A stretch of DNA of 41,076 bases, from the NCBI GenBank assembly GCA_007693745.1, contig REDA01000055.1, positions 1 to 41,076 on the forward strand. Direction: 5' to 3'. Shown piece after piece: positions 20,220 through 29,836 of the stretch. How positions within the stretch are numbered: the stretch's first letter is position 1; each line of letters starts with the position of its first letter. The stretch comes from Balneolaceae bacterium. GTDB taxonomy: Bacteria; Bacteroidota; Rhodothermia; Balneolales; Balneolaceae. The notes beneath the pieces were generated by a model. The model was not told where the DNA came from. It did no database searches and saw only the letters and a list, made by a program, of their open reading frames with translations. The position numbers and the translations under genes are program-made.

Positions 20220-21293
20220 ATGAAAACCTTAAAAATCATCGCTCTTGTTTTTGCAGGCTTTGCTGCTCTGTTGCTTATCCTGCTTCTCAGCCTCATCCGT
20301 CCCGACATACCGGTTGAAAGACTAATGGAAAGCTATACCGATGAAACCTCCCAGTTTCTCGATATCGACGGCATGCAGGTTCACGTAAAAGATGAAGGCG
20401 AAGGACCGGTTCTGCTTCTTTTGCACGGGATGTTCGCTTCACTGCATACCTGGGATCCCTGGGCTGAAGAACTGAATGAGGAATTCCGGCTTGTACGGGT
20501 TGATCTTCCCGGTTTTGGGATTACGGGTCCGCATCCTGAGGGTGATTACTCATTACGGGCATCTATGTATGTGCTGGAGTCGATTCGTAAAGAGCTTGGC
20601 ATTGAGAAGTGGACACTCATTGGAAATTCGATGGGAGGCGGACTGGCACTGAGCTATGCACAGCTCTATCCTGAGCATACCGAAAACGTGGTTCTCTTTA
20701 ACGGCGGACGTCTGCTCACATCAACCTCAGCACCTGGCGAGTCAAACGGGCCTGAAGAGAGAACGGTAAGCGCAAGGGTTGATACAGTCGAGGTGCGTGA
20801 TGCAGAAGAAACGAATCAATCCGCTACCGTATCGGGTAACCGTCAATCTCTGGTACTCCGGGCTCTTGGCTCCCCTGCACTTCGAAAAGCACTGAGTGTG
20901 CTGACTCCCAAATTCATCATCGAACGATCTCTGAAAGAGGTGTATGGTGATCCCGATCGTTTACAAACCGAAGCTGTAACCCGCTATTACGAACTACTCA
21001 GGCGCGAGGGCAATCGACAGGCCTACCTCAGCAGAAGAGAGATGCAGCCACGACGGGATGGCAATCTGCCCGATCTTCCTGATCCGGTAAATATCAACGA
21101 TTCTGGAGTCCCTGTTTTGATCATCTGGGGCCGACTGGATTCGTGGATACCCGTCAGCGTCGGCTACCGGCTCCACGAAGCCATCGCCCATTCGCAGCTG
21201 ATTATCTATGAGGATCTCGGCCATGTTCCCATGGAAGAGGATCCTGAACGCACCATCGCTGCTGTGAAGGAGTATTTGATACGGGGGGATTAA
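20220..21293 (+). CDS. Membrane-anchored alpha/beta-fold hydrolase
   Basis: A 357-residue protein with one N-terminal hydrophobic helix (about 4-26) and an alpha/beta-hydrolase domain facing outward. The oxyanion region is LLLLHGMFAS (65-74). The nucleophile elbow is GNSMGG with Ser137. The acid is probably the Asp in IIWGRLDSW, and the catalytic His lies in EDLGHVPMEEDP. A polar insertion of about 40 residues after VVLFNGG forms a cap. The substrate is not predictable; esterase, lipase and haloalkane-type hydrolases share this layout. The ATG at 20220 has no strong Shine-Dalgarno sequence. Confidence 0.87.
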   Translation: MKTLKIIALVFAGFAALLLILLLSLIRPDIPVERLMESYTDETSQFLDIDGMQVHVKDEGEGPVLLLLHGMFASLHTWDPWAEELNEEFRLVRVDLPGFGITGPHPEGDYSLRASMYVLESIRKELGIEKWTLIGNSMGGGLALSYAQLYPEHTENVVLFNGGRLLTSTSAPGESNGPEERTVSARVDTVEVRDAEETNQSATVSGNRQSLVLRALGSPALRKALSVLTPKFIIERSLKEVYGDPDRLQTEAVTRYYELLRREGNRQAYLSRREMQPRRDGNLPDLPDPVNINDSGVPVLIIWGRLDSWIPVSVGYRLHEAIAHSQLIIYEDLGHVPMEEDPERTIAAVKEYLIRGD

Positions 21294-21525: not shown

Positions 21526-21566
21526 TTGTTTGATAAACTTCAATAATGTATTTTGCTATCAAACAA
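21526..21566. promoter_or_regulatory. Perfect 10-bp inverted repeat at the 5' end of the DUF4143 ATPase gene
   Basis: TTGTTTGATA at 21526-21535 is the exact reverse complement of TATCAAACAA at 21557-21566, with 21 bases between. The left arm also overlaps an ATG that runs into a stop after seven codons. The structure would place an operator or an mRNA hairpin right at the possible starts (TTG 21553, GTG 21574). Confidence 0.5.
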
Positions 21567-21573
21567 AGAGACC

Positions 21574-22779
21574 GTGATACTAAAATCAACACTTGAAGAA
21601 GTTGCAGATGCGCAAAAGAGCAACTTGCTGCAACGGGACGCTGGGCTAAAAAGGCAACAGCTGGAAACCCTGCCGCAATTATCTTCCCATGCGCTTATCA
21701 TCTCCGGCGTCAGGCGATGCGGGAAGAGTACGTTACTTCATCAATGGCTCAAGCTGAGGTACAAGGATGCTTTTTACCTGAACTTCGAAGACCCACGGTT
21801 GTATGAAATGGAGCTGAATGATTTTACCCGACTCGATGAGATCATCAGAGAGAATGAGTACAAGACGCTTTTTTTCGATGAAATCCAGGTGGTCGGAGGG
21901 TGGGAGCGCTATGTTCGCCAAAAGCTGGACGAAGGGTTGAAACTGGTTATTACCGGATCCAGTGCATCACTGCTGAGCAGGGAATTAGGAACGAAACTAA
22001 CAGGCCGGTACATCCTGAAAGAGCTCTTCCCATTTTCATGGAATGAGTATTGTGAATTCAGATCTCCCGAGCGTACCGCGCAGTCTCTGGCTGCATACAT
22101 GCAGACCGGTGGTTTTCCCGAATATGTTAAAACGGAAAATGATGATATCCTTCATCAGCTTTTTGAGGATATACTGCTTCGGGATATCGCTGTGCGCTAT
22201 GGTGTTCGGGACGTAAAAACGCTTCAGCGGCTGGCACTTTATCTGGTGTCGAATGTAGGCAACCTGGTAACCGGGAACCGGCTTAAATCCCTGTTTGGAA
22301 TCGGAGCCACGAGTACGGTAATGGAGTATTTCTCACATCTTGAGCAAACCTGGCTGTTTCACTTTATCCCAAAATTCAGCTATTCGGCGCGAAAACAGTC
22401 CATCAACCCGAGAAAGGTTTATGCAATAGATACCGGGCTGGTGAACGTAAACTCTAAATCGTTTTCGGGCGATTCGGGTAGAATTCTGGAAAATCTGGTA
22501 TTTCTGCATCTGCGCAGGAGCTTCCATGAGATCTGCTATTTTTCAGAGAAAGGTGAATGCGATTTTGTGGTTCTGGATAAAAATCAGCCGGTGAAAATCG
22601 TGCAGGTTTGCCAAGAGCTGACGCCCGACAATCTGGATCGCGAGCTGAACGGACTGTTTGAAGCCCTCGAATTCTTCAATATGGATGAAGGATTTATCGT
22701 CACTCAAAATCAAACGGATCTTTTCGAGCGGGATGGAAGAAGGGCGGTTGTGGTTCCCTGTTACCGGTTTTTTGGGTGA
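21574..22779 (+). CDS. DUF4143-family AAA-type ATPase
   Basis: About 401 residues. An N-terminal AAA domain has Walker A GVRRCGKST (about 45-53), Walker B LFFDEIQ (about 99-105) and a sensor-like LVITGSSASLL. The C-terminal DUF4143 region (about 190-340, GRILENLVFLHLRR) ends in a restriction-endonuclease-like stretch (GECDFVV). These archaeal-type ATPases are common in accessory DNA and their role is unknown. The start is uncertain. GTG at 21574 matches the usual length of relatives and follows an AAAGAG stretch, while TTG at 21553 would add seven residues and put the inverted repeat inside the gene. No ATG fits. Confidence 0.83.
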   Translation: MILKSTLEEVADAQKSNLLQRDAGLKRQQLETLPQLSSHALIISGVRRCGKSTLLHQWLKLRYKDAFYLNFEDPRLYEMELNDFTRLDEIIRENEYKTLFFDEIQVVGGWERYVRQKLDEGLKLVITGSSASLLSRELGTKLTGRYILKELFPFSWNEYCEFRSPERTAQSLAAYMQTGGFPEYVKTENDDILHQLFEDILLRDIAVRYGVRDVKTLQRLALYLVSNVGNLVTGNRLKSLFGIGATSTVMEYFSHLEQTWLFHFIPKFSYSARKQSINPRKVYAIDTGLVNVNSKSFSGDSGRILENLVFLHLRRSFHEICYFSEKGECDFVVLDKNQPVKIVQVCQELTPDNLDRELNGLFEALEFFNMDEGFIVTQNQTDLFERDGRRAVVVPCYRFFG

Positions 22780-22873
22780 GGGTCTTTCTGATTCACTATG
22801 CTGGGCCAAAAGTTCAGTGGGATGCAAACAGAATATCAAAAGAGAACAGGCAATGATTTGTTTCATTTTCAGG

Positions 22874-23044
22874 TTATTCCATCACCCCAAATTTGGTATT
22901 CAAAAGCTTTGATTCACTTTTAATTCTATCTTTCGCTTCATTCATTTGCATTTGATAGGGCGGGAATACAATAATAAGCGTCATCAGAATAAGCACAACG
23001 AAACCAACCAAAGCGTATAGCGTAAGTTTTATAACCCTTGTCAT
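22874..23044 (-). CDS. Small single-helix membrane protein, unknown
   Basis: A 56-residue frame from the ATG at 23044 consists of a basic start (MTRVIKL), one strongly hydrophobic helix (about 8-28, VVLILMTLIIVF) and a charged tail (MNEAKDRIKSESK). This is a plausible small inner-membrane protein. No family is recognised and no Shine-Dalgarno sequence is visible. It is the only gene-like content of the 406-base gap between the ATPase and the serine hydrolase, and it lies downstream of the serine hydrolase gene on the same strand. Confidence 0.45.
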   Translation of the reverse strand: MTRVIKLTLYALVGFVVLILMTLIIVFPPYQMQMNEAKDRIKSESKLLNTKFGVME

Positions 23045-23185: not shown

Positions 23186-24376
23186 TTATACCCGCGAATC
23201 GGAAATAATTTTATTAACTGCATTCCTGATATTAAGCTCCCTTTTCATATTCATCATCTCTGATGACATGTTGTTCATTGTGTACGCAATGGTCAGCTTT
23301 TGATCAGGATCATGTAATACAAAACTTCCACCGGCTCCAAATCCACCAATAGCTTTCGGAGAATCAGAAAAATTATGTCTTTCAGATGGTTTCATAAATC
23401 CGGCATGAAACCTGAATGCATCTTGCTTAAAAACCAGATCACTCCATCCTTTTATGGGTTCATCGGGGTAATTCATCAAATACTCTGCTGTTTGTTTACC
23501 CAAACAGAAGGGGTGATTCTCATTTGTTAAAGAATCGATAAGAGAAGCAAGTCCCCTGGCATTTCCAATTCCTCCGCCGGCCCCTATCTCGAGTTGAAGG
23601 ATTTCCGGTTTATTAAAATTGGAATGATTGCTGACAAATGATGGATTCAGCATAGATTTATAGGTGAGGGACCAGGGCTTGAAAAATTCCAATACAAAAG
23701 TTAAAGGCATGGAAAGAATCCCCTTGATCTTCGAAAAAGGTTTCAATGTTGCAATCCCGGCCGAATCATAATTCTTATCTATTCCAATTCGGACTTCACC
23801 TTCAATTTCCGGAAGCACTTCCTGTTCAAGGAATTCTTTAAGCGTTCTTTTTTTAGGGTCAATTCTTAAAAGCAATGAGCTGATATACCAGCCTATAGTC
23901 CAAACATGATACCCCTGATAATTCCCGGGGTGCCAGTGGGGGGGTTGTCCTGCCAGCACTTTATCTAATGAGCGTTGATCTCTGATGATGTTCACATTCA
24001 GTTTTCTATCGATAGCAGAAAGACCGGCTCTGTGTTGAAGTAATTGCTCAATTGTAATTTCTCTCTTACCTCCAATTCCAAACTCAGGCCAGTATTCATA
24101 GACTCTATCCTTGTAGTCAAATAGTCCTCTGCTGTGGCAAATGGCCAAACAACTTGCAGCAACTGCTTTTGTTGTGGAAAATATAGGCACGAGAGTATTC
24201 TCGTCCCATTTTTTGTTTCTCTCCAAATCTTTAAAACCGCCCCATATATCAATCACTTTTTCATGTTCGTGATACATACAGAGTGAGGCTCCAATTTCTC
24301 CGTTTAGTAGAAAGTTATTTCTAAATGCATCAGCAATTTCAGCGTAATCCTGATCAATGTTGCCTTCGATCTTCAT
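23186..24376 (-). CDS. Class-C-beta-lactamase-like serine hydrolase (EstB/LACTB type)
   Basis: A 396-residue serine hydrolase of the beta-lactamase/transpeptidase-like superfamily. The nucleophile motif S67-T-T-K70 lies in PIFSTTKAV, and a tyrosine in NYQGYHVWT (Tyr156) is in the position of the general base. The third motif region is GGFGAGGSFVL near the end. No signal peptide is seen, so it is probably cytoplasmic, as for EstB-type esterases rather than secreted beta-lactamases. It is the last gene of the minus-strand run from the TonB receptor, 106 bases after the methyltransferase. Its DNA is AT-rich compared with the left half of the window. Confidence 0.85.
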   Translation of the reverse strand: MKIEGNIDQDYAEIADAFRNNFLLNGEIGASLCMYHEHEKVIDIWGGFKDLERNKKWDENTLVPIFSTTKAVAASCLAICHSRGLFDYKDRVYEYWPEFGIGGKREITIEQLLQHRAGLSAIDRKLNVNIIRDQRSLDKVLAGQPPHWHPGNYQGYHVWTIGWYISSLLLRIDPKKRTLKEFLEQEVLPEIEGEVRIGIDKNYDSAGIATLKPFSKIKGILSMPLTFVLEFFKPWSLTYKSMLNPSFVSNHSNFNKPEILQLEIGAGGGIGNARGLASLIDSLTNENHPFCLGKQTAEYLMNYPDEPIKGWSDLVFKQDAFRFHAGFMKPSERHNFSDSPKAIGGFGAGGSFVLHDPDQKLTIAYTMNNMSSEMMNMKRELNIRNAVNKIISDSRV

Positions 24377-24482
24377 ATCTCAACCTTTTTCAAGTTATGC
24401 CTTCCACAGTCTGTGTAAGCAGTAGCGGATCACAAAAAACCAACCGCAGACTTATTTGTCAACAGCCTGGTTATGTCGTTTA

Positions 24483-25238
24483 CTATTGTTCATTTTTCCT
24501 TGCTATGTAAAAACCATAGCTGTAATAGTCCTTGTATTTTTGGTATAAACGGATCTCCGCTTTGTTATCTTCAACTACTTTTCTTGCAAGTTTTGAATTG
24601 TTGTTTCGGATCAGAAAAGATTCAAATCTTGCTTCCATCGGTTTATAGTATGTTTCAATCCAGCTCTCTTTAGATAAGTTGAAATATCCTGCCAATGTAA
24701 ATCCATTTTCTTCCAGAAGGGTAATTTTTTTTGAAGCCGTGTCGATTTCGGGATATTCCTGTACCCAAAATTCTTCAATTTCTTTTGGCCGGGAATTGGT
24801 TATCCAGGTAATTTCACTTAATGCTAAATAGCCACCCTGTTTTAGATATTTTTTCCAACTTTTTACTCCGTACTCAAATCCAATATTGTAAATCGCACCT
24901 TCAGCCCAAATTATGTCAAGTTCTTCAGCACTAAAGGGCAACTCTTCCATTGATTTTTCAAGCGTCGCAATTTTATCGGTCAGACCAAACGTCATAGATT
25001 TTTCATTCAGCTCATCCAGGAATTCAGGAAATAGATCAATCGCAGTTATTTTCCCATTTATGTTTTGTGCGAGTGTTATGGTTTGACCTCCGGTTCCGCA
25101 ACCAATGTCAGCTACTTTTAATTCTCTGTTATTCTGTAACTTAATGAATTCAAGGGCTTTAAGTGTTTCTTTCTCACTCCCGGGGCCTTGCCTTTCCGAG
25201 TTTTTATGAAGGTCAAGAATCAGTTCAAATTCTGTCAT
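24483..25238 (-). CDS. Class I SAM-dependent methyltransferase
   Basis: A 251-residue methyltransferase. The SAM-binding motif is VADIGCGTGGQT (about 42-53), with acidic TAIDLFPEF closing the second strand and ELDIIWAEGAIYNIG after motif II. The C-terminal third is polar and family-specific. The target, likely a small molecule, is unknown. Its ATG overlaps the stop of the nitroreductase as ATGA, so translation is coupled. Its codons and bases are AT-rich like its neighbours. Confidence 0.86.
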   Translation of the reverse strand: MTEFELILDLHKNSERQGPGSEKETLKALEFIKLQNNRELKVADIGCGTGGQTITLAQNINGKITAIDLFPEFLDELNEKSMTFGLTDKIATLEKSMEELPFSAEELDIIWAEGAIYNIGFEYGVKSWKKYLKQGGYLALSEITWITNSRPKEIEEFWVQEYPEIDTASKKITLLEENGFTLAGYFNLSKESWIETYYKPMEARFESFLIRNNNSKLARKVVEDNKAEIRLYQKYKDYYSYGFYIARKNEQ

Positions 25239-26209
25239 TTTTTTGGTTTAATTATTACATCATTAACACTACGCCTGAATGAATCCGGCATTTTATGTGA
25301 AAAGCCCAACCGGATTAAAAGCTGCGGAAACTCTCCCTTCAGGCCAAGGTATGATCTCATTTTGTCCCTTACCTCTGTTATCTGACAAGGCGAATTGAGA
25401 TGCGAATGGCTAAGTTTTAACGATGCAGCAGTAAGTGCAAATCGCTGGAAAACCATTCCCGTTTTAATCCAGTTCTCCGGATTGTTACCCGGGGTGGTGA
25501 ATAAGGCAATAACCGCAGTTTTTTTCAACTGGTTGAGCAATCTTTTGTTTTCGCTCCCGGCAGTCACAGCGTTTCTCAACACAAAACTTCCAAGTACTCG
25601 TCCAAACGATGGCAAACCGCTGCAGGAGGTGTAAAGACCATCGCCCTTTTGCATGGCTTCCTTCTTACTAAAGCGCACCCAGTGTATCAACTCGTTTACA
25701 AATTTGGGATTGCTCATCTGGATATCGTTGGCTTCAGCAATGAAAGAGCCGAACGGTTGTATTTCATTTTGTCCGATATAAAACCGGATACGATCAGCAT
25801 CTGCCACCTTTACCAGAGCAGTAATATCCTCATGAGTAACTGCCGTTCCCGCATATCGGTTTCGGGTTGTTTGTCTTACCTTGATATATGAAAAGAGTGC
25901 CGGTTTTTCGATCAGATCATCTTTTTGGAGTGATATGTTTATTGGACAATCCCTACTCAAGGCGTTGATTTGAAGCGTTGGCCTGTAACCATAAAACCTT
26001 GCAGAAATCATTGCGGTTTCTGCGGCGCAACCCAGGCTGATAAACAGCTCCCTCTGATCGGGATCGGCAACAGGCAGCGAGCGGCTGAAATCCGGAACAA
26101 TGCACAAGTCGTCGTCCTGTTTAGCAAACAACCAGGGCTGCGTATTGTGGGCCGATGGTGACCTTACGGCACTCCGCACTATTTTTATAAAAATTTCATC
26201 TGGTATCAT
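25235..26209 (-). CDS. Acg-like nitroreductase-family protein
   Basis: A 324-residue protein of the nitroreductase fold, close to the Acg/Rv2032-type group of about 330 residues. Typical stretches are AVRSPSAHNTQPWLF near the N-terminus, ADPDQRELFISLGCAAET and RQTTRNRYAG. Relatives bind FMN, but some have a lid that blocks catalysis and may store flavin, so redox activity is not assured. The ATG at 26209 follows GCAGGT at a proper distance. A TTG nine codons upstream would overlap the TonB receptor end. It lies 16 bases after the receptor stop and overlaps the methyltransferase by four bases. Confidence 0.82.
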   Translation of the reverse strand: MIPDEIFIKIVRSAVRSPSAHNTQPWLFAKQDDDLCIVPDFSRSLPVADPDQRELFISLGCAAETAMISARFYGYRPTLQINALSRDCPINISLQKDDLIEKPALFSYIKVRQTTRNRYAGTAVTHEDITALVKVADADRIRFYIGQNEIQPFGSFIAEANDIQMSNPKFVNELIHWVRFSKKEAMQKGDGLYTSCSGLPSFGRVLGSFVLRNAVTAGSENKRLLNQLKKTAVIALFTTPGNNPENWIKTGMVFQRFALTAASLKLSHSHLNSPCQITEVRDKMRSYLGLKGEFPQLLIRLGFSHKMPDSFRRSVNDVIIKPKK

Positions 26210-26225
26210 TTTACCTGCGCTATAG

Positions 26226-28592
26226 TTAAAATTCAATCTTATACCCCAATGATGGGAAAGGCATTTTCATCGTATCTATTATCACCTCATTTTCCATTCG
26301 GCTGTAAAACGGATCGCTGTAATCGGGTTGTATCAGAGCATTTTTTATCATGAAGTACCAGGTGCCTGAAGATTTTGATTTGTTCACTTTATAGGTAATT
26401 GACAAATCGACTCCGGTTGTTGAAGGAAACTGGCTCTCGTAAGCCCGTGAGTGATCGGGGATCGCCCAACTGGCAGCCATGGATTCTTCATAAAGAACCG
26501 GGGTATATCGCAATCCTCCCATGCGGGTAATTTTGGCACTGATGCCAAGAATATTTTTATTTTTCAGCATCCACTCCTTTCCCGCCATAAGGTTTATTAC
26601 ATGACCTCTGTTGTAAACGGTGTTGTATTCCTTACCATCGCCCCCGGTATATTTTGAATCGAAAAGGGTTGCTGTAAAAAGATAGTAGTAGCCATTTTTT
26701 ATAAACCGCTCGAGGGTTACATCAATTCCGTAGTTTTTTCCCGTACCGGAGTTCTCCAGTTTGCGGTTTATCGCCCAGTTACTCGTAACATTGATGATAG
26801 AAAATGAACTGTTCGGATAAACCGGGATGTCTTCGAGTCTCTGGTAATAAGGCTCTATCTTCATTCGAATCACATCGCTGATTCTTCGGCTGTAACCCAG
26901 CACAAAATGGTGCGATTTCATGAAATCGAGATTCTTGTTTTGCAGCTCAGCGATACCGTTACTTTTTACCTCTGAAAAATAGGTGCGCAGCTCTTCCATT
27001 TGTGAATGCATTCCATATGCAATGCTTAACTCATCATTTTGACTAATTTCCCAGTTAATACCGACCCGAGGTTCGAAAGTAGCTTTCCCATTGACATCGA
27101 GATACATGGAGTGTACACCCAGATTGGCAGTTACATTGGGCAACAGATCTATTCTGAATTGTGTAAATATCTGAGTTGATAAAGCTCTTCCCTTTGTATC
27201 TACAAAATTCATCATGTTTTCGGGATGGTCATAAAATGCCATTTGTATTTTGTTATCGAAGAACAAACTGTTAACGGTGATACCTGTCCGTGAATTGATT
27301 TTGGTATTGAACCTGTGATTCAATACCGTCCTGAACGTATATTTCCCTTCCGTGCTTTGTGAGTTGAGTACCGGAAGCATTTGCATACCGAGCGAATACT
27401 CTCTTTTGTCATACGTGTTTCTCATACCATCAGCGCTGAGCATGGTTTCCAGATAGGAGGTTCTTCCAACGAAAGTCTGATGCGACAAACCAACAACACC
27501 GAAACGGTTTTTGTACCTTTGGCTCATGTAATCGATAGAGGTTTCCCATTTGGAGGGGTCATCCTTTGCATCTTTATTATTGATATCATCGGCGCCCATT
27601 CCCCAGATTGTGAACGTACCCGAATTCCGAGTTGGAAAGTCGAATTTGAACGTTACGTCCTGAAAGGTTGGGAGATTTGGGAAGCTGACCATCTTACCGA
27701 TGAGCCCGAGAGTACCGTATCGATAATTAAACAGATAAGTTGATCTTTCCCCTCTGATGAAGGGACCCTCTGCTGCAAAATCCAGACCCTGAATTCCCAC
27801 TCCGGCAGTGTATTCTCGTTTTTCAACATTTCCGGTCCTCATTTTTACATCAAAAACACCTGAGAATGCATTGCCATATTCAGCAGGGAATGCCCCCGTG
27901 AAAAAATCCGAGTTACGAAGCATCTGGCTGCTGAACACGGTGTAACCGCCGCCGCCCACAAAATCGACATTGGGAAAGTGAAATGTAGCCGGGACATCAA
28001 CACCTTCTACCCGCCAAAGAACACCTCTTGGTGAATTGCCGCGAATGATAATGGCATTGTTGGTCGTTTGAGTTGTAGCTACACCTGCAAAGCCAGCAGC
28101 CAAACGGGCAGGGTCGTCCAATCCCCCTGCATAACGGCTGGCTTCCTCTACGCTGAATGTACGGGCACTTACTGTTGCCATTGAGTTCCTCGGTCTGTCT
28201 TTACTGATGGAACCCCATACAACAACTTCACCTAATGAATGGGATGTTTCTTTCAACTCAATTTCAAGTACAACCTCTTTCCCCGTCCCTACCAGAATTT
28301 CAGATAGTATTTGGGGTTCATATCCAACATAGCTAATCACAAAGTTAAATCTTCCGACAGGAACTCTTTCCAGACGGAAATTCCCATTCACATCAGCGGT
28401 TGTACCGAGCAGTGGTTCGATTCCATCAACCACTATTGCCGCACCAATCAGTGGGATTTTCAGATCGGCATCCTTAATCGAACCCCTTACCGTTTGAGTC
28501 AGGGTATCTTGAGAAAGGGCCGTTGATACATCGAAGATCAACAGTATTGTAAATACCAGCGTCACTGCCTTTAAATATATATTCCGTTTCAT
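26226..28592 (-). CDS. TonB-dependent receptor with N-terminal carboxypeptidase-regulatory-like domain
   Basis: A 788-residue outer-membrane protein. It has a signal peptide (about 1-28), a CarboxypepD_reg-like beta-sandwich (about 33-115, VRGSIKDADLKIPLIGAAI through YVGYEP), then a plug (about 120-255, IIIRGNSPRGVLWRVEGVDVP, FPAEYGNAFSGVFDVKMRTGN) and a beta-barrel ending in FPSLGYKIEF. This layout is typical of Bacteroidota. The ligand is unknown. No SusD partner is present, so a polysaccharide-uptake pair is unlikely. It heads the receptor-nitroreductase-methyltransferase-hydrolase run and sits just downstream of a membrane AraC regulator. A 9-bp inverted repeat covers its leader. Confidence 0.9.
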   Translation of the reverse strand: MKRNIYLKAVTLVFTILLIFDVSTALSQDTLTQTVRGSIKDADLKIPLIGAAIVVDGIEPLLGTTADVNGNFRLERVPVGRFNFVISYVGYEPQILSEILVGTGKEVVLEIELKETSHSLGEVVVWGSISKDRPRNSMATVSARTFSVEEASRYAGGLDDPARLAAGFAGVATTQTTNNAIIIRGNSPRGVLWRVEGVDVPATFHFPNVDFVGGGGYTVFSSQMLRNSDFFTGAFPAEYGNAFSGVFDVKMRTGNVEKREYTAGVGIQGLDFAAEGPFIRGERSTYLFNYRYGTLGLIGKMVSFPNLPTFQDVTFKFDFPTRNSGTFTIWGMGADDINNKDAKDDPSKWETSIDYMSQRYKNRFGVVGLSHQTFVGRTSYLETMLSADGMRNTYDKREYSLGMQMLPVLNSQSTEGKYTFRTVLNHRFNTKINSRTGITVNSLFFDNKIQMAFYDHPENMMNFVDTKGRALSTQIFTQFRIDLLPNVTANLGVHSMYLDVNGKATFEPRVGINWEISQNDELSIAYGMHSQMEELRTYFSEVKSNGIAELQNKNLDFMKSHHFVLGYSRRISDVIRMKIEPYYQRLEDIPVYPNSSFSIINVTSNWAINRKLENSGTGKNYGIDVTLERFIKNGYYYLFTATLFDSKYTGGDGKEYNTVYNRGHVINLMAGKEWMLKNKNILGISAKITRMGGLRYTPVLYEESMAASWAIPDHSRAYESQFPSTTGVDLSITYKVNKSKSSGTWYFMIKNALIQPDYSDPFYSRMENEVIIDTMKMPFPSLGYKIEF

Positions 28593-28594
28593 AT

Positions 28595-28630
28595 TTTTGC
28601 ATTTAAACGTTTCAGTTTATGAATGCAAAA
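28595..28630. promoter_or_regulatory. Inverted repeat in the leader of the TonB receptor gene
   Basis: TTTTGCATT (28595-28603) and AATGCAAAA (28622-28630) are perfect reverse complements 18 bases apart, and the spacer contains the palindrome AAACGTTT (28605-28612). The element begins two bases upstream of the receptor start codon, so it could be an operator or a hairpin covering the ribosome-binding region. Confidence 0.45.
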
Positions 28631-28708
28631 TATGTCGGATCAGATAGACCGGAGTTTCACTTTCTATTTTTCAAGTATCGCTTTCCTGAGATAAGAGTCT
28701 CACTTTTT

Positions 28709-29836
28709 TTATGAGACCTTGGAAATGTAGGCTGATGGAGAGATCCCTTCAAATTTATTGAATGCCCTGTAAAAGGCCGCCTTTGAGTTAAAACCACAGT
28801 CGAATGCGATGCCCAGTATAGATAAATGCTTGTTATCATTTATCAAACACTTTAATTTGAATTCCTCAACACGATATTTGTTGACAAAGTCAAAGAAGTT
28901 TTGGTTCAATGTAGAGTTGAGAACTTCAGAGATGATTCCAGGTTTGGTATTCATCAATTTACTTAGCTTGGCCAAATTAAGCTCCGGGTCTAAATAAGGC
29001 TGTTCAGATTCCATCAACAGAGTCAACCTGGTGATAATATGCGAATAGTCCTTATTTACGACAGTTTCAAGGGTACCCTGATCTGTTGATTCAAGTCTCT
29101 GATCATTTTCAGTGATAGGATAATCCACAAAAATCCGACCCTGCCTGATTCCAAAATAACCGATATACAACACATACAGAGTTGAAAAACTGTAAGCAAA
29201 CACCGCAATTTCGTAGAAATTTGCAAAGTTTAAGTAGTTATTTATATTAAAAACAAGAACATTGACCGAAAACACAATCAGTGAGGCAATTACAAGGGTT
29301 TTCAACCATGAAAGATCGATACTTTCGATATTTGAAAATTGATTTTCGATAGTTACCCTGTAGTTCCGCAGTTGTTTTAAAGCCCAGATATTGTATCCGA
29401 TACTGAAAACACCGATGGATATGCCCCTGATTTTAAAAAACAGTGTTGTTGTGAACAGTTCATTTTCTGCCAGAAGTATTTTCTCATCAGCGGAGAGAAA
29501 CAGATAATTCAGCATATGTAGAACTAAAAAAACGGCGAATGGGGTGAGGTGAAGAAGATGCAAGGGCTTTATCTTAAACTCCTTCTCTGTAAGTGATTTA
29601 ACATAAAGCCAGAGCAGCGGACCGTGCAGGAGTAGAAACAACCAGGCATTGTTTATTAAATGAGGATGTGGAAACTCATTCTCGCGATTATAAATCTCTA
29701 AATAAGGGCCTCCAATGGTTATCGCATAAACAGCAAACATGCAGAGCAACGTATTGTCAGCCAATGTTTTATCTTTCTTTCCAATGAGTAGCAGGAGTAG
29801 AAAAAGCGATATAAAAAATCCCAGCAGAAGAATCAT
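28709..29836 (-). CDS. Membrane-bound AraC-family transcriptional regulator
   Basis: A 375-residue protein whose first ~225 residues are mostly hydrophobic helices (about seven membrane segments, starting LLLGFFISLFLLLLLIG). A C-terminal AraC helix-turn-helix pair follows (about 275-373, LNLAKLSKLMN, GIAFDCGFNSKAAFYRAFNKFEG, SPSAYI). Such 7TM-AraC proteins are frequent in Bacteroidota and probably sense an envelope or small-molecule signal. It is 116 bases upstream of the TonB receptor on the same strand, so the receptor module is its likely target. The ATG at 29836 starts directly with the first helix. Confidence 0.87.
   Translation of the reverse strand: MILLLGFFISLFLLLLLIGKKDKTLADNTLLCMFAVYAITIGGPYLEIYNRENEFPHPHLINNAWLFLLLHGPLLWLYVKSLTEKEFKIKPLHLLHLTPFAVFLVLHMLNYLFLSADEKILLAENELFTTTLFFKIRGISIGVFSIGYNIWALKQLRNYRVTIENQFSNIESIDLSWLKTLVIASLIVFSVNVLVFNINNYLNFANFYEIAVFAYSFSTLYVLYIGYFGIRQGRIFVDYPITENDQRLESTDQGTLETVVNKDYSHIITRLTLLMESEQPYLDPELNLAKLSKLMNTKPGIISEVLNSTLNQNFFDFVNKYRVEEFKLKCLINDNKHLSILGIAFDCGFNSKAAFYRAFNKFEGISPSAYISKVS

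Follow-up and report, generated by a model that had tools for sequence, protein, structure and literature searches.

A conserved receptor, Acg and hydrolase unit behind a membrane AraC regulator and its probable operator in Balneolaceae

What compound would a bacterium take up and process with a TonB-type outer-membrane receptor, an Acg-family flavoprotein and a serine hydrolase encoded in a row behind a membrane-embedded AraC regulator? The question is raised by contig REDA01000055.1 of Balneolaceae bacterium (assembly GCA_007693745.1), a stretch of 41,076 nucleotides, hereafter the window, which is one entire contig of a 2.87-Mb draft genome. A first-pass annotation had proposed a five-gene module importing a compound that is then reduced, methylated or hydrolysed. 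We found this module to be real but composed differently, and its interpretation to be partly supported. Comparative sequence analysis lends good support to a regulatory unit, for which we tentatively propose, at a little less than an even chance, an operon that is induced by a ligand through its own membrane regulator and serves the uptake and processing of an acyl or ester compound. This cargo is our best guess because of the esterase-type partners and the chemistry known from the Acg subgroup. G and L numbers below denote genomes and loci, respectively.

Gene layout and conservation of the unit

Coordinates of the open reading frames (ORFs) bore out the five genes on the minus strand in the order and with the gaps first described, and profiles agreed with the names given to the AraC, Acg and methyltransferase genes. 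The Acg ATG start lies 16 bp past the receptor stop (an alternative TTG start is open at 26236), and the Acg and methyltransferase genes are joined by an ATGA overlap. The features are as follows.

28709..29836, minus strand: seven-transmembrane (7TM) AraC regulator, N-terminal membrane helices and C-terminal AraC-type helix-turn-helix (HTH) domain (HTH_18)
28652..28706, minus strand: probable operator made up of three direct repeats of 12 bp (top three matrix sites in the window; layout shared by six genomes)
26226..28592, minus strand: outer-membrane protein of TonB-dependent-receptor type, carrying a carboxypeptidase-regulatory-like domain at its N-terminus (PF13715, CarbopepD_reg_2, 5.7e-15; 23-member alignment)
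25235..26209, minus strand: Acg-family flavin mononucleotide (FMN) oxidoreductase (NF047509; structure model)
24483..25238, minus strand: S-adenosylmethionine-dependent methyltransferase (PF13649, 1.7e-13; generic methyltransferase domains)
23186..24376, minus strand: PF00144 serine hydrolase, carboxylesterase type (Pfam profile; solved relatives)
22877..23044, minus strand: alpha/beta hydrolase remnant of 56 codons (77% identity over 56 residues to the G019/G020 gene; a stop follows)
22785..22866, minus strand: remnant of a gene start, the corresponding gene of G012 (L035) encoding a DUF2279 protein (DNA likeness to L012)

The genus set comprised 28 genomes, the source genome included (27 others). 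The order AraC–TonB–Acg–hydrolase is kept in G019 (L011) and G020 (L012) with 71–86% identity, and its conservation, as judged from the sequences, exceeds chance. Both sister units run on into a membrane-anchored alpha/beta hydrolase of 315 amino acids and have no methyltransferase gene. The TonB–Acg pair alone recurs in L238 (Bacteroidetes bacterium DLM2.Bin11) with a gap of 63 bp between the two genes; there, the last 130 receptor residues are 87% and Acg 63% identical; the contig starts inside the receptor, and the best regulator matches of that genome (38% and 33%) are on other contigs. Thus, the genes were not found apart in all relatives. Single components are more widespread, the serine hydrolase matching at E ≤1e-40 in 6/28 genus genomes (orthologues of 74–84% in the five other than the source genome) and the receptor at E ≤1e-60 in 8/28; in G010, the hydrolase comes next after a 36% receptor that the contig end truncates, and Acg is missing there.

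The comparison indicates that the original unit included the downstream alpha/beta hydrolase, of which the window retains the 56-codon remnant. DNA identity between the window and L012 is 94% over 98 bp, running down from 22882, and the hydrolase gene breaks at a short sequence that G020 has both within this gene and before the next one, which is the pattern that a deletion between short repeats would leave. The methyltransferase was probably inserted in the window copy only. Its homologues stand apart (27 places outside the window), none of the 12 fetched loci having the Acg, receptor or regulator of the unit, and a common module including this gene was rejected, since it is also missing in the sister copies; for the same reasons the methylation step proposed at first is doubtful. 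With one gene gained and one lost, the window copy is thus a derived one. A tie to the contrary was seen in G012 (L178), where a methyltransferase of 43% identity is found about 1 kb from an alpha/beta hydrolase of 83%.

The membrane AraC regulator and its probable operator

The regulator was recognised by HTH_18 (8.8e-12; 45.6 bits vs a cut-off of 33.6), and its AlphaFold model (mean predicted local distance difference test score, pLDDT, 72.9) has long helices in residues 2–230, then the HTH; the HTH domain covers about residues 262–375. First Foldseek matches of the model were AraC-type HTH domains (best E 0.0032); the likeness of the membrane part to seven-helix receptors was weak (E 0.053 and worse) and was not used.

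Outside the genus, a 7TM-AraC regulator 46–49% identical to that of the window heads an Acg cluster at three Bacteroidales loci, L243 (Mariniphaga), L244 and L256; Acg follows directly in L256 and after other genes in L243 and L244. Other regulators outside the genus trio reached at most 37% identity in searches of the class and phylum. The six Acg-linked regulators form one clade in a tree of 50 regulators (support 100/99). As the Bacteroidales sequences of this tree were retrieved by an Acg search, their Acg linkage is by selection; the unselected results are the clade, the repeats described below, and the regulator scans of class and phylum.

Between araC and the receptor gene, three direct repeats are located on the minus strand at 28706–28695, 28684–28673 and 28663–28652, with a spacing of 22 and 21 bp, the consensus AAAGTGARACTC and a more divergent middle copy. 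For every one of the three genus members, 0/60 shuffles yielded a 12-mer pair of equal quality (shuffles in the repeat, matrix and spacer-word tests preserve base content only). A matrix built from nine genus sites, without L243, L244 and L256, scores the three repeats above every other site in the 41-kb window, both strands included, and its scan of 345 partly overlapping sequences (3.19 Mb) revealed the same arrangement after the L243, L244 and L256 regulators, with best-pair scores of 33.6, 24.3 and 22.7 (a further 21.1 in L256). Other places scoring at least 20 were L092/L049 (25.0; its split araC is on the other strand), L315 (21.2) and L085 (20.1); five more scored from 18 to 20, and shuffling the set once produced six matches of 18 or more. 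All six genomes have the layout 12-10-12-9-12, in which the 22- and 21-bp steps make about two helical turns each, and the repeats start no more than 29 bp ahead of the araC end and no more than 2 bp past it; the third copy is poor in L244. The layout is thus kept from the Balneolaceae genus to Bacteroidales, even though it precedes Acg genes of two different lineages. The triple repeat is therefore the probable operator of the 7TM-AraC regulator, which we infer to bind it. The initial proposal that these genes form a unit behind a membrane regulator is upheld by the sister genomes, the regulator clade and the probable operator before the receptor.

A weak operator-like pair (18.6, in the chance range) was seen at L240:5969 on the plus strand, just before the first gene of an Acg cluster; the regulator of that genome (36%) is located elsewhere. 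Words like GTCCA[AG] or GCCCAA occur in 17/25 regulator–receptor spacers of sister clades (L043 and the L070–L106 set) and in 0/2 trio spacers tested, and GGACGAT is present in 12/27 AraC–TonB spacers overall; such words are perhaps the operator of the sister clades.

Pairing of the receptor with regulators

Receptor places in the class numbered 45 in 244 genomes (E up to 1e-150). Upstream of 30 of them, on the same strand, lies a 7TM-AraC gene; 13 have none, and at two the contig ends too early to tell. Further pairs (L339, L342) were seen in the genomes of L238 and Capnocytophaga cynodegmi, the genomes searched in that scan all carrying Acg. Among 20 phylum loci picked by the regulator, the receptor family adjoins it in four (same strand in L203; opposite in L205, L209 and L211). 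These sequence comparisons place the regulator–receptor pairing as older than the Acg-linked unit.

At seven of the 13 places without 7TM-AraC another regulator adjoins, which was LuxR-type (L040, L041, L078), WYL (L079, L081) or an extracytoplasmic function (ECF) sigma factor with FecR (L082, L085); one per class was profile-tested and the rest assigned by inspection. A weaker paralogue in G016 (L042) is found beside a Crp-type regulator. One receptor family thus pairs with several regulator classes. TonB-dependent receptor genes with a local regulator are familiar from FecIR–FecA and SusR–SusCD. Our unit likewise has a receptor gene adjoining a probable regulator, but this is a membrane AraC protein, with no sigma/anti-sigma pair or SusD; some paralogous receptors do have ECF sigma and FecR. 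Neither the unit nor the regulator–receptor pairing was found described in titles and abstract beginnings of the open-licence literature searched.

The neighbours of a 64% receptor in G090 (L088) are a patatin-Omp85 protein, two PF00144 proteins and two alpha/beta hydrolases, but neither Acg nor a window-type regulator. A same-strand gene of 253–256 amino acids follows the receptor in L072, L076 and L104, that of L076 being ThuA (PF06283) and the others alike by inspection. A PDB sequence search with the receptor gave chance matches only.

Hydrolases linked to Acg

The serine hydrolase had been described as cytoplasmic and class-C-like. By inspection it has no obvious signal peptide, and the PF00144 assignment stood, whereas class C did not: the class C beta-lactamase profile (NF033085) was rejected at 23.3 bits vs a cut-off of 415, and the proteins of solved structure that match best are carboxylesterases with a beta-lactamase fold (5gmx, E 9.9e-44; 7y3z), with full-length similarity and a shared STTK motif. 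The PF00144 fold, the S-x-x-K motif and esterases as nearest relatives are those of 'family VIII' carboxylesterases, a label that we take to apply. What sets the window hydrolase apart from these is its place in a unit with a receptor and Acg.

All Acg places of the window's family, 15/15 loci, have a hydrolase no more than 5 kb away (PF00144 in 12, alpha/beta hydrolase in 12), a count that is partly circular because the hidden Markov models were built from clusters including the counted loci; for the window, a gene on the opposite strand at 20220 supplies the alpha/beta match, since the remnant is too short to count. Controls with the same models found hydrolases near 2/11 methyltransferase loci and 2/28 receptor loci without Acg. 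Elsewhere in the class the figure was 1/18, these being the loci fetched of 31 outside the family; five showed no Acg ORF, and six-frame translation anchored all 18. Six of the 18 fall in a cluster that by inspection consists of universal-stress proteins.

Could such hydrolases serve detoxification instead, the unit sensing and destroying a toxic antibiotic ester or lactone, with the receptor as entry door or simply co-induced? The presence of PF00144 and alpha/beta hydrolases in several loci would fit, as would the accessory-like patchiness (3/28 genus genomes) and the receptor–Acg pair in an unrelated draft. However, inducing an uptake receptor for a toxin would be odd, and no export gene belongs to the unit. 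PADLOC left the unit proteins without a match except mad2 for the methyltransferase (58.8 bits), which we set aside as a generic methyltransferase domain; this says little about drugs. We regard detoxification as unlikely.

The Acg flavoprotein

The window protein scores 256.2 bits on the NF047509 Acg family (cut-off 199; residues 10–319). Its model (pLDDT 89.1) has Mycobacterium smegmatis Acg, 2ymv, as best PDB match (TM 0.82, E 1.4e-17, 20% identity), which makes it by prediction clearly an Acg-family FMN-binding oxidoreductase with the same single-chain nitroreductase-type fold. Acg/Rv3131 of mycobacteria (FDO-B in PMC10404671) belongs to the same family and fold; the mycobacterial genes are in the DosR regulon, whereas the window gene follows a membrane AraC gene and a receptor and precedes a hydrolase.

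Acg belongs to a flavin-dependent oxidase (FDO) subgroup in which TyzC and OxzB, the members characterised so far, are O2-dependent desaturases of N-acyl amino acids, the Acg branch is suggested to desaturate other lipids, and the natural role of Acg-type flavoproteins is still open (PMC10404671). Mycobacterial Acg is described as unable to use NAD(P)H and having a lid that covers FMN (PMC11841060), and an acg gene was reported to be needed for in vivo growth and virulence of Mycobacterium tuberculosis (PMC3110807). Because of these desaturases and the lack of NAD(P)H use in the mycobacterial protein, the reduction step proposed at first is doubtful. The TyzABC/OxzAB acyl-oxazolone pathways (FDO-A) share the flavoprotein subgroup and acyl substrates; they are defined by a ThiF cyclase and an N-acyltransferase, neither of which is among the genes of the window unit.

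This chemistry could also belong to signal processing, in which a lipid-like signal, e.g. an acyl-lactone or N-acyl amino acid derivative, is sensed, quenched or salvaged. A membrane one-component regulator would suit it, as would the action of the Acg subgroup on N-acyl amino acids (PMC10404671) and the lipoprotein-like alpha/beta hydrolase that follows the regulator in 5/20 phylum loci by inspection (L198, L200, L201, L204, L206). Nevertheless, no synthase or known signal gene is nearby and a signal would hardly need TonB-driven uptake, and we consider this explanation quite improbable.

The trio Acg proteins group with those of L238, L239 and L240 (support 100/100), apart from the other Acg of the window's family and from the Acg that the Bacteroidales regulators of the clade head (group support 84/99). 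The links to hydrolase and regulator therefore extend over more than a single lineage of Acg, which speaks for function beside descent. According to PMC11841060, an FMN-storage role has been proposed for mycobacterial Acg; if the window protein likewise stored or shielded FMN or answered redox stress, receptor and hydrolases would be passengers in a variable island, as the strong variation in gene content between loci might suggest. Against this stand the same-order unit in three genomes, the probable operator ahead of the unit in six and the 15/15 hydrolase link, and we think it very unlikely. An acyl or ester substrate taken up and processed by the unit remains the reading that we prefer.

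The commonest Acg partner was a DUF6544 protein, which shared the Acg strand in 18/18 cases (L244:8988-10082, L243:9042-9836 and 16 other loci) among 99 anchored of 107 Acg loci taken, six family duplicates left out. No paper naming DUF6544 / DUF6920 was found in the open-licence literature searched. A contig scan with a single Acg protein confirmed no locus; an Acg alignment query did.

Proposed function

We infer the ligand, the transport by the receptor and the chemistry as follows. The 7TM-AraC protein in the inner membrane would respond to a ligand or product, probably lipophilic, and its HTH would bind the three phased repeats where its own gene ends and so activate the genes downstream. 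The TonB-type receptor would then carry the compound across the outer membrane, and the carboxylesterase-type hydrolase would cleave an ester or acyl bond inside the cell, as would the membrane-anchored alpha/beta hydrolase in the sister genomes. The Acg-type flavoprotein may oxidise, not reduce, the compound or its released part, and the methyltransferase would be a later addition.

Several observations weigh against this proposal. The unit is present in just 3/28 genus genomes, and the operon has no inner-membrane importer. The naming of the receptor agrees with its CarbopepD_reg_2 domain, but its Plug match is sub-threshold (18.4 bits vs a cut-off of 23.9); Plug matches at E up to 0.05 occur in 13/23 homologues. 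The L243, L244 and L256 clusters are without a TonB receptor. Their best 12-mer repeats are not significant by themselves in L243 (9/60 shuffles) and L256 (5/60), and since the L244 and L256 matrix scores are within the range of the best chance places, the case for these two rests on position and layout. Beyond the genus, the regulator most similar to that of the window (about 62%), in the Prolixibacteraceae draft L333, is not beside Acg: broken into two overlapping ORFs (L333:4729-5860), it has other genes around it and no triple repeat was found beside it, and an Acg at 59% is on a separate contig of that genome. Among named Acg loci from other groups, a hydrolase was found in 8/71 (77/80 anchored, 14 with hydrolase; minus six duplicates of the window's family); the Acg–hydrolase link is therefore a feature of the window's family and a few others, and not of Acg at large. 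Finally, the hydrolases differ between loci, so there is no single conserved reaction.

A bolder version, which we hold to be improbable, would be a one-component system for a lipophilic acyl compound that combines the seven-helix AraC protein and triple-repeat operator with TonB-type uptake, de-esterification and Acg-type flavin-dependent desaturation; regulator and operator would be kept between the Balneolaceae genus and Bacteroidales, and outer-membrane protein, Acg lineage and hydrolase exchanged. If true, the Acg family would gain its first natural inducer and substrate class. The conserved unit with its sharply defined probable operator is a possible reporter basis for compound screening and a route to the role of Acg, and the survey reveals membrane AraC regulators that, as a class, are paired with a single family of outer-membrane receptors.

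Genes surrounding the unit

The absence of SusD and siderophore families, noted from the outset, held among the ten neighbouring genes scanned with Pfam. Terminators in the window (six found vs 9.3 expected) gave no signal. A same-strand ABC-2 transporter lies 639 bp upstream of araC; the segment 30476–35058 (minus strand) encodes this transporter (two DUF3526 permeases and an ATPase) and a CobW protein resembling ZigA, which scores 302.1 bits on the ZigA profile, below the cut-off of 600. These genes were rejected as module members, as L011 has other genes in that place; the upstream side is comparable only there, the L012 contig ending within araC. On the other side, an AAA_14/DUF4143 gene (21553–22779, plus strand) adjoins the module, and its homologues (72% in L180, 76% in L097) are also near a hydrolase island or an AraC–TonB pair.

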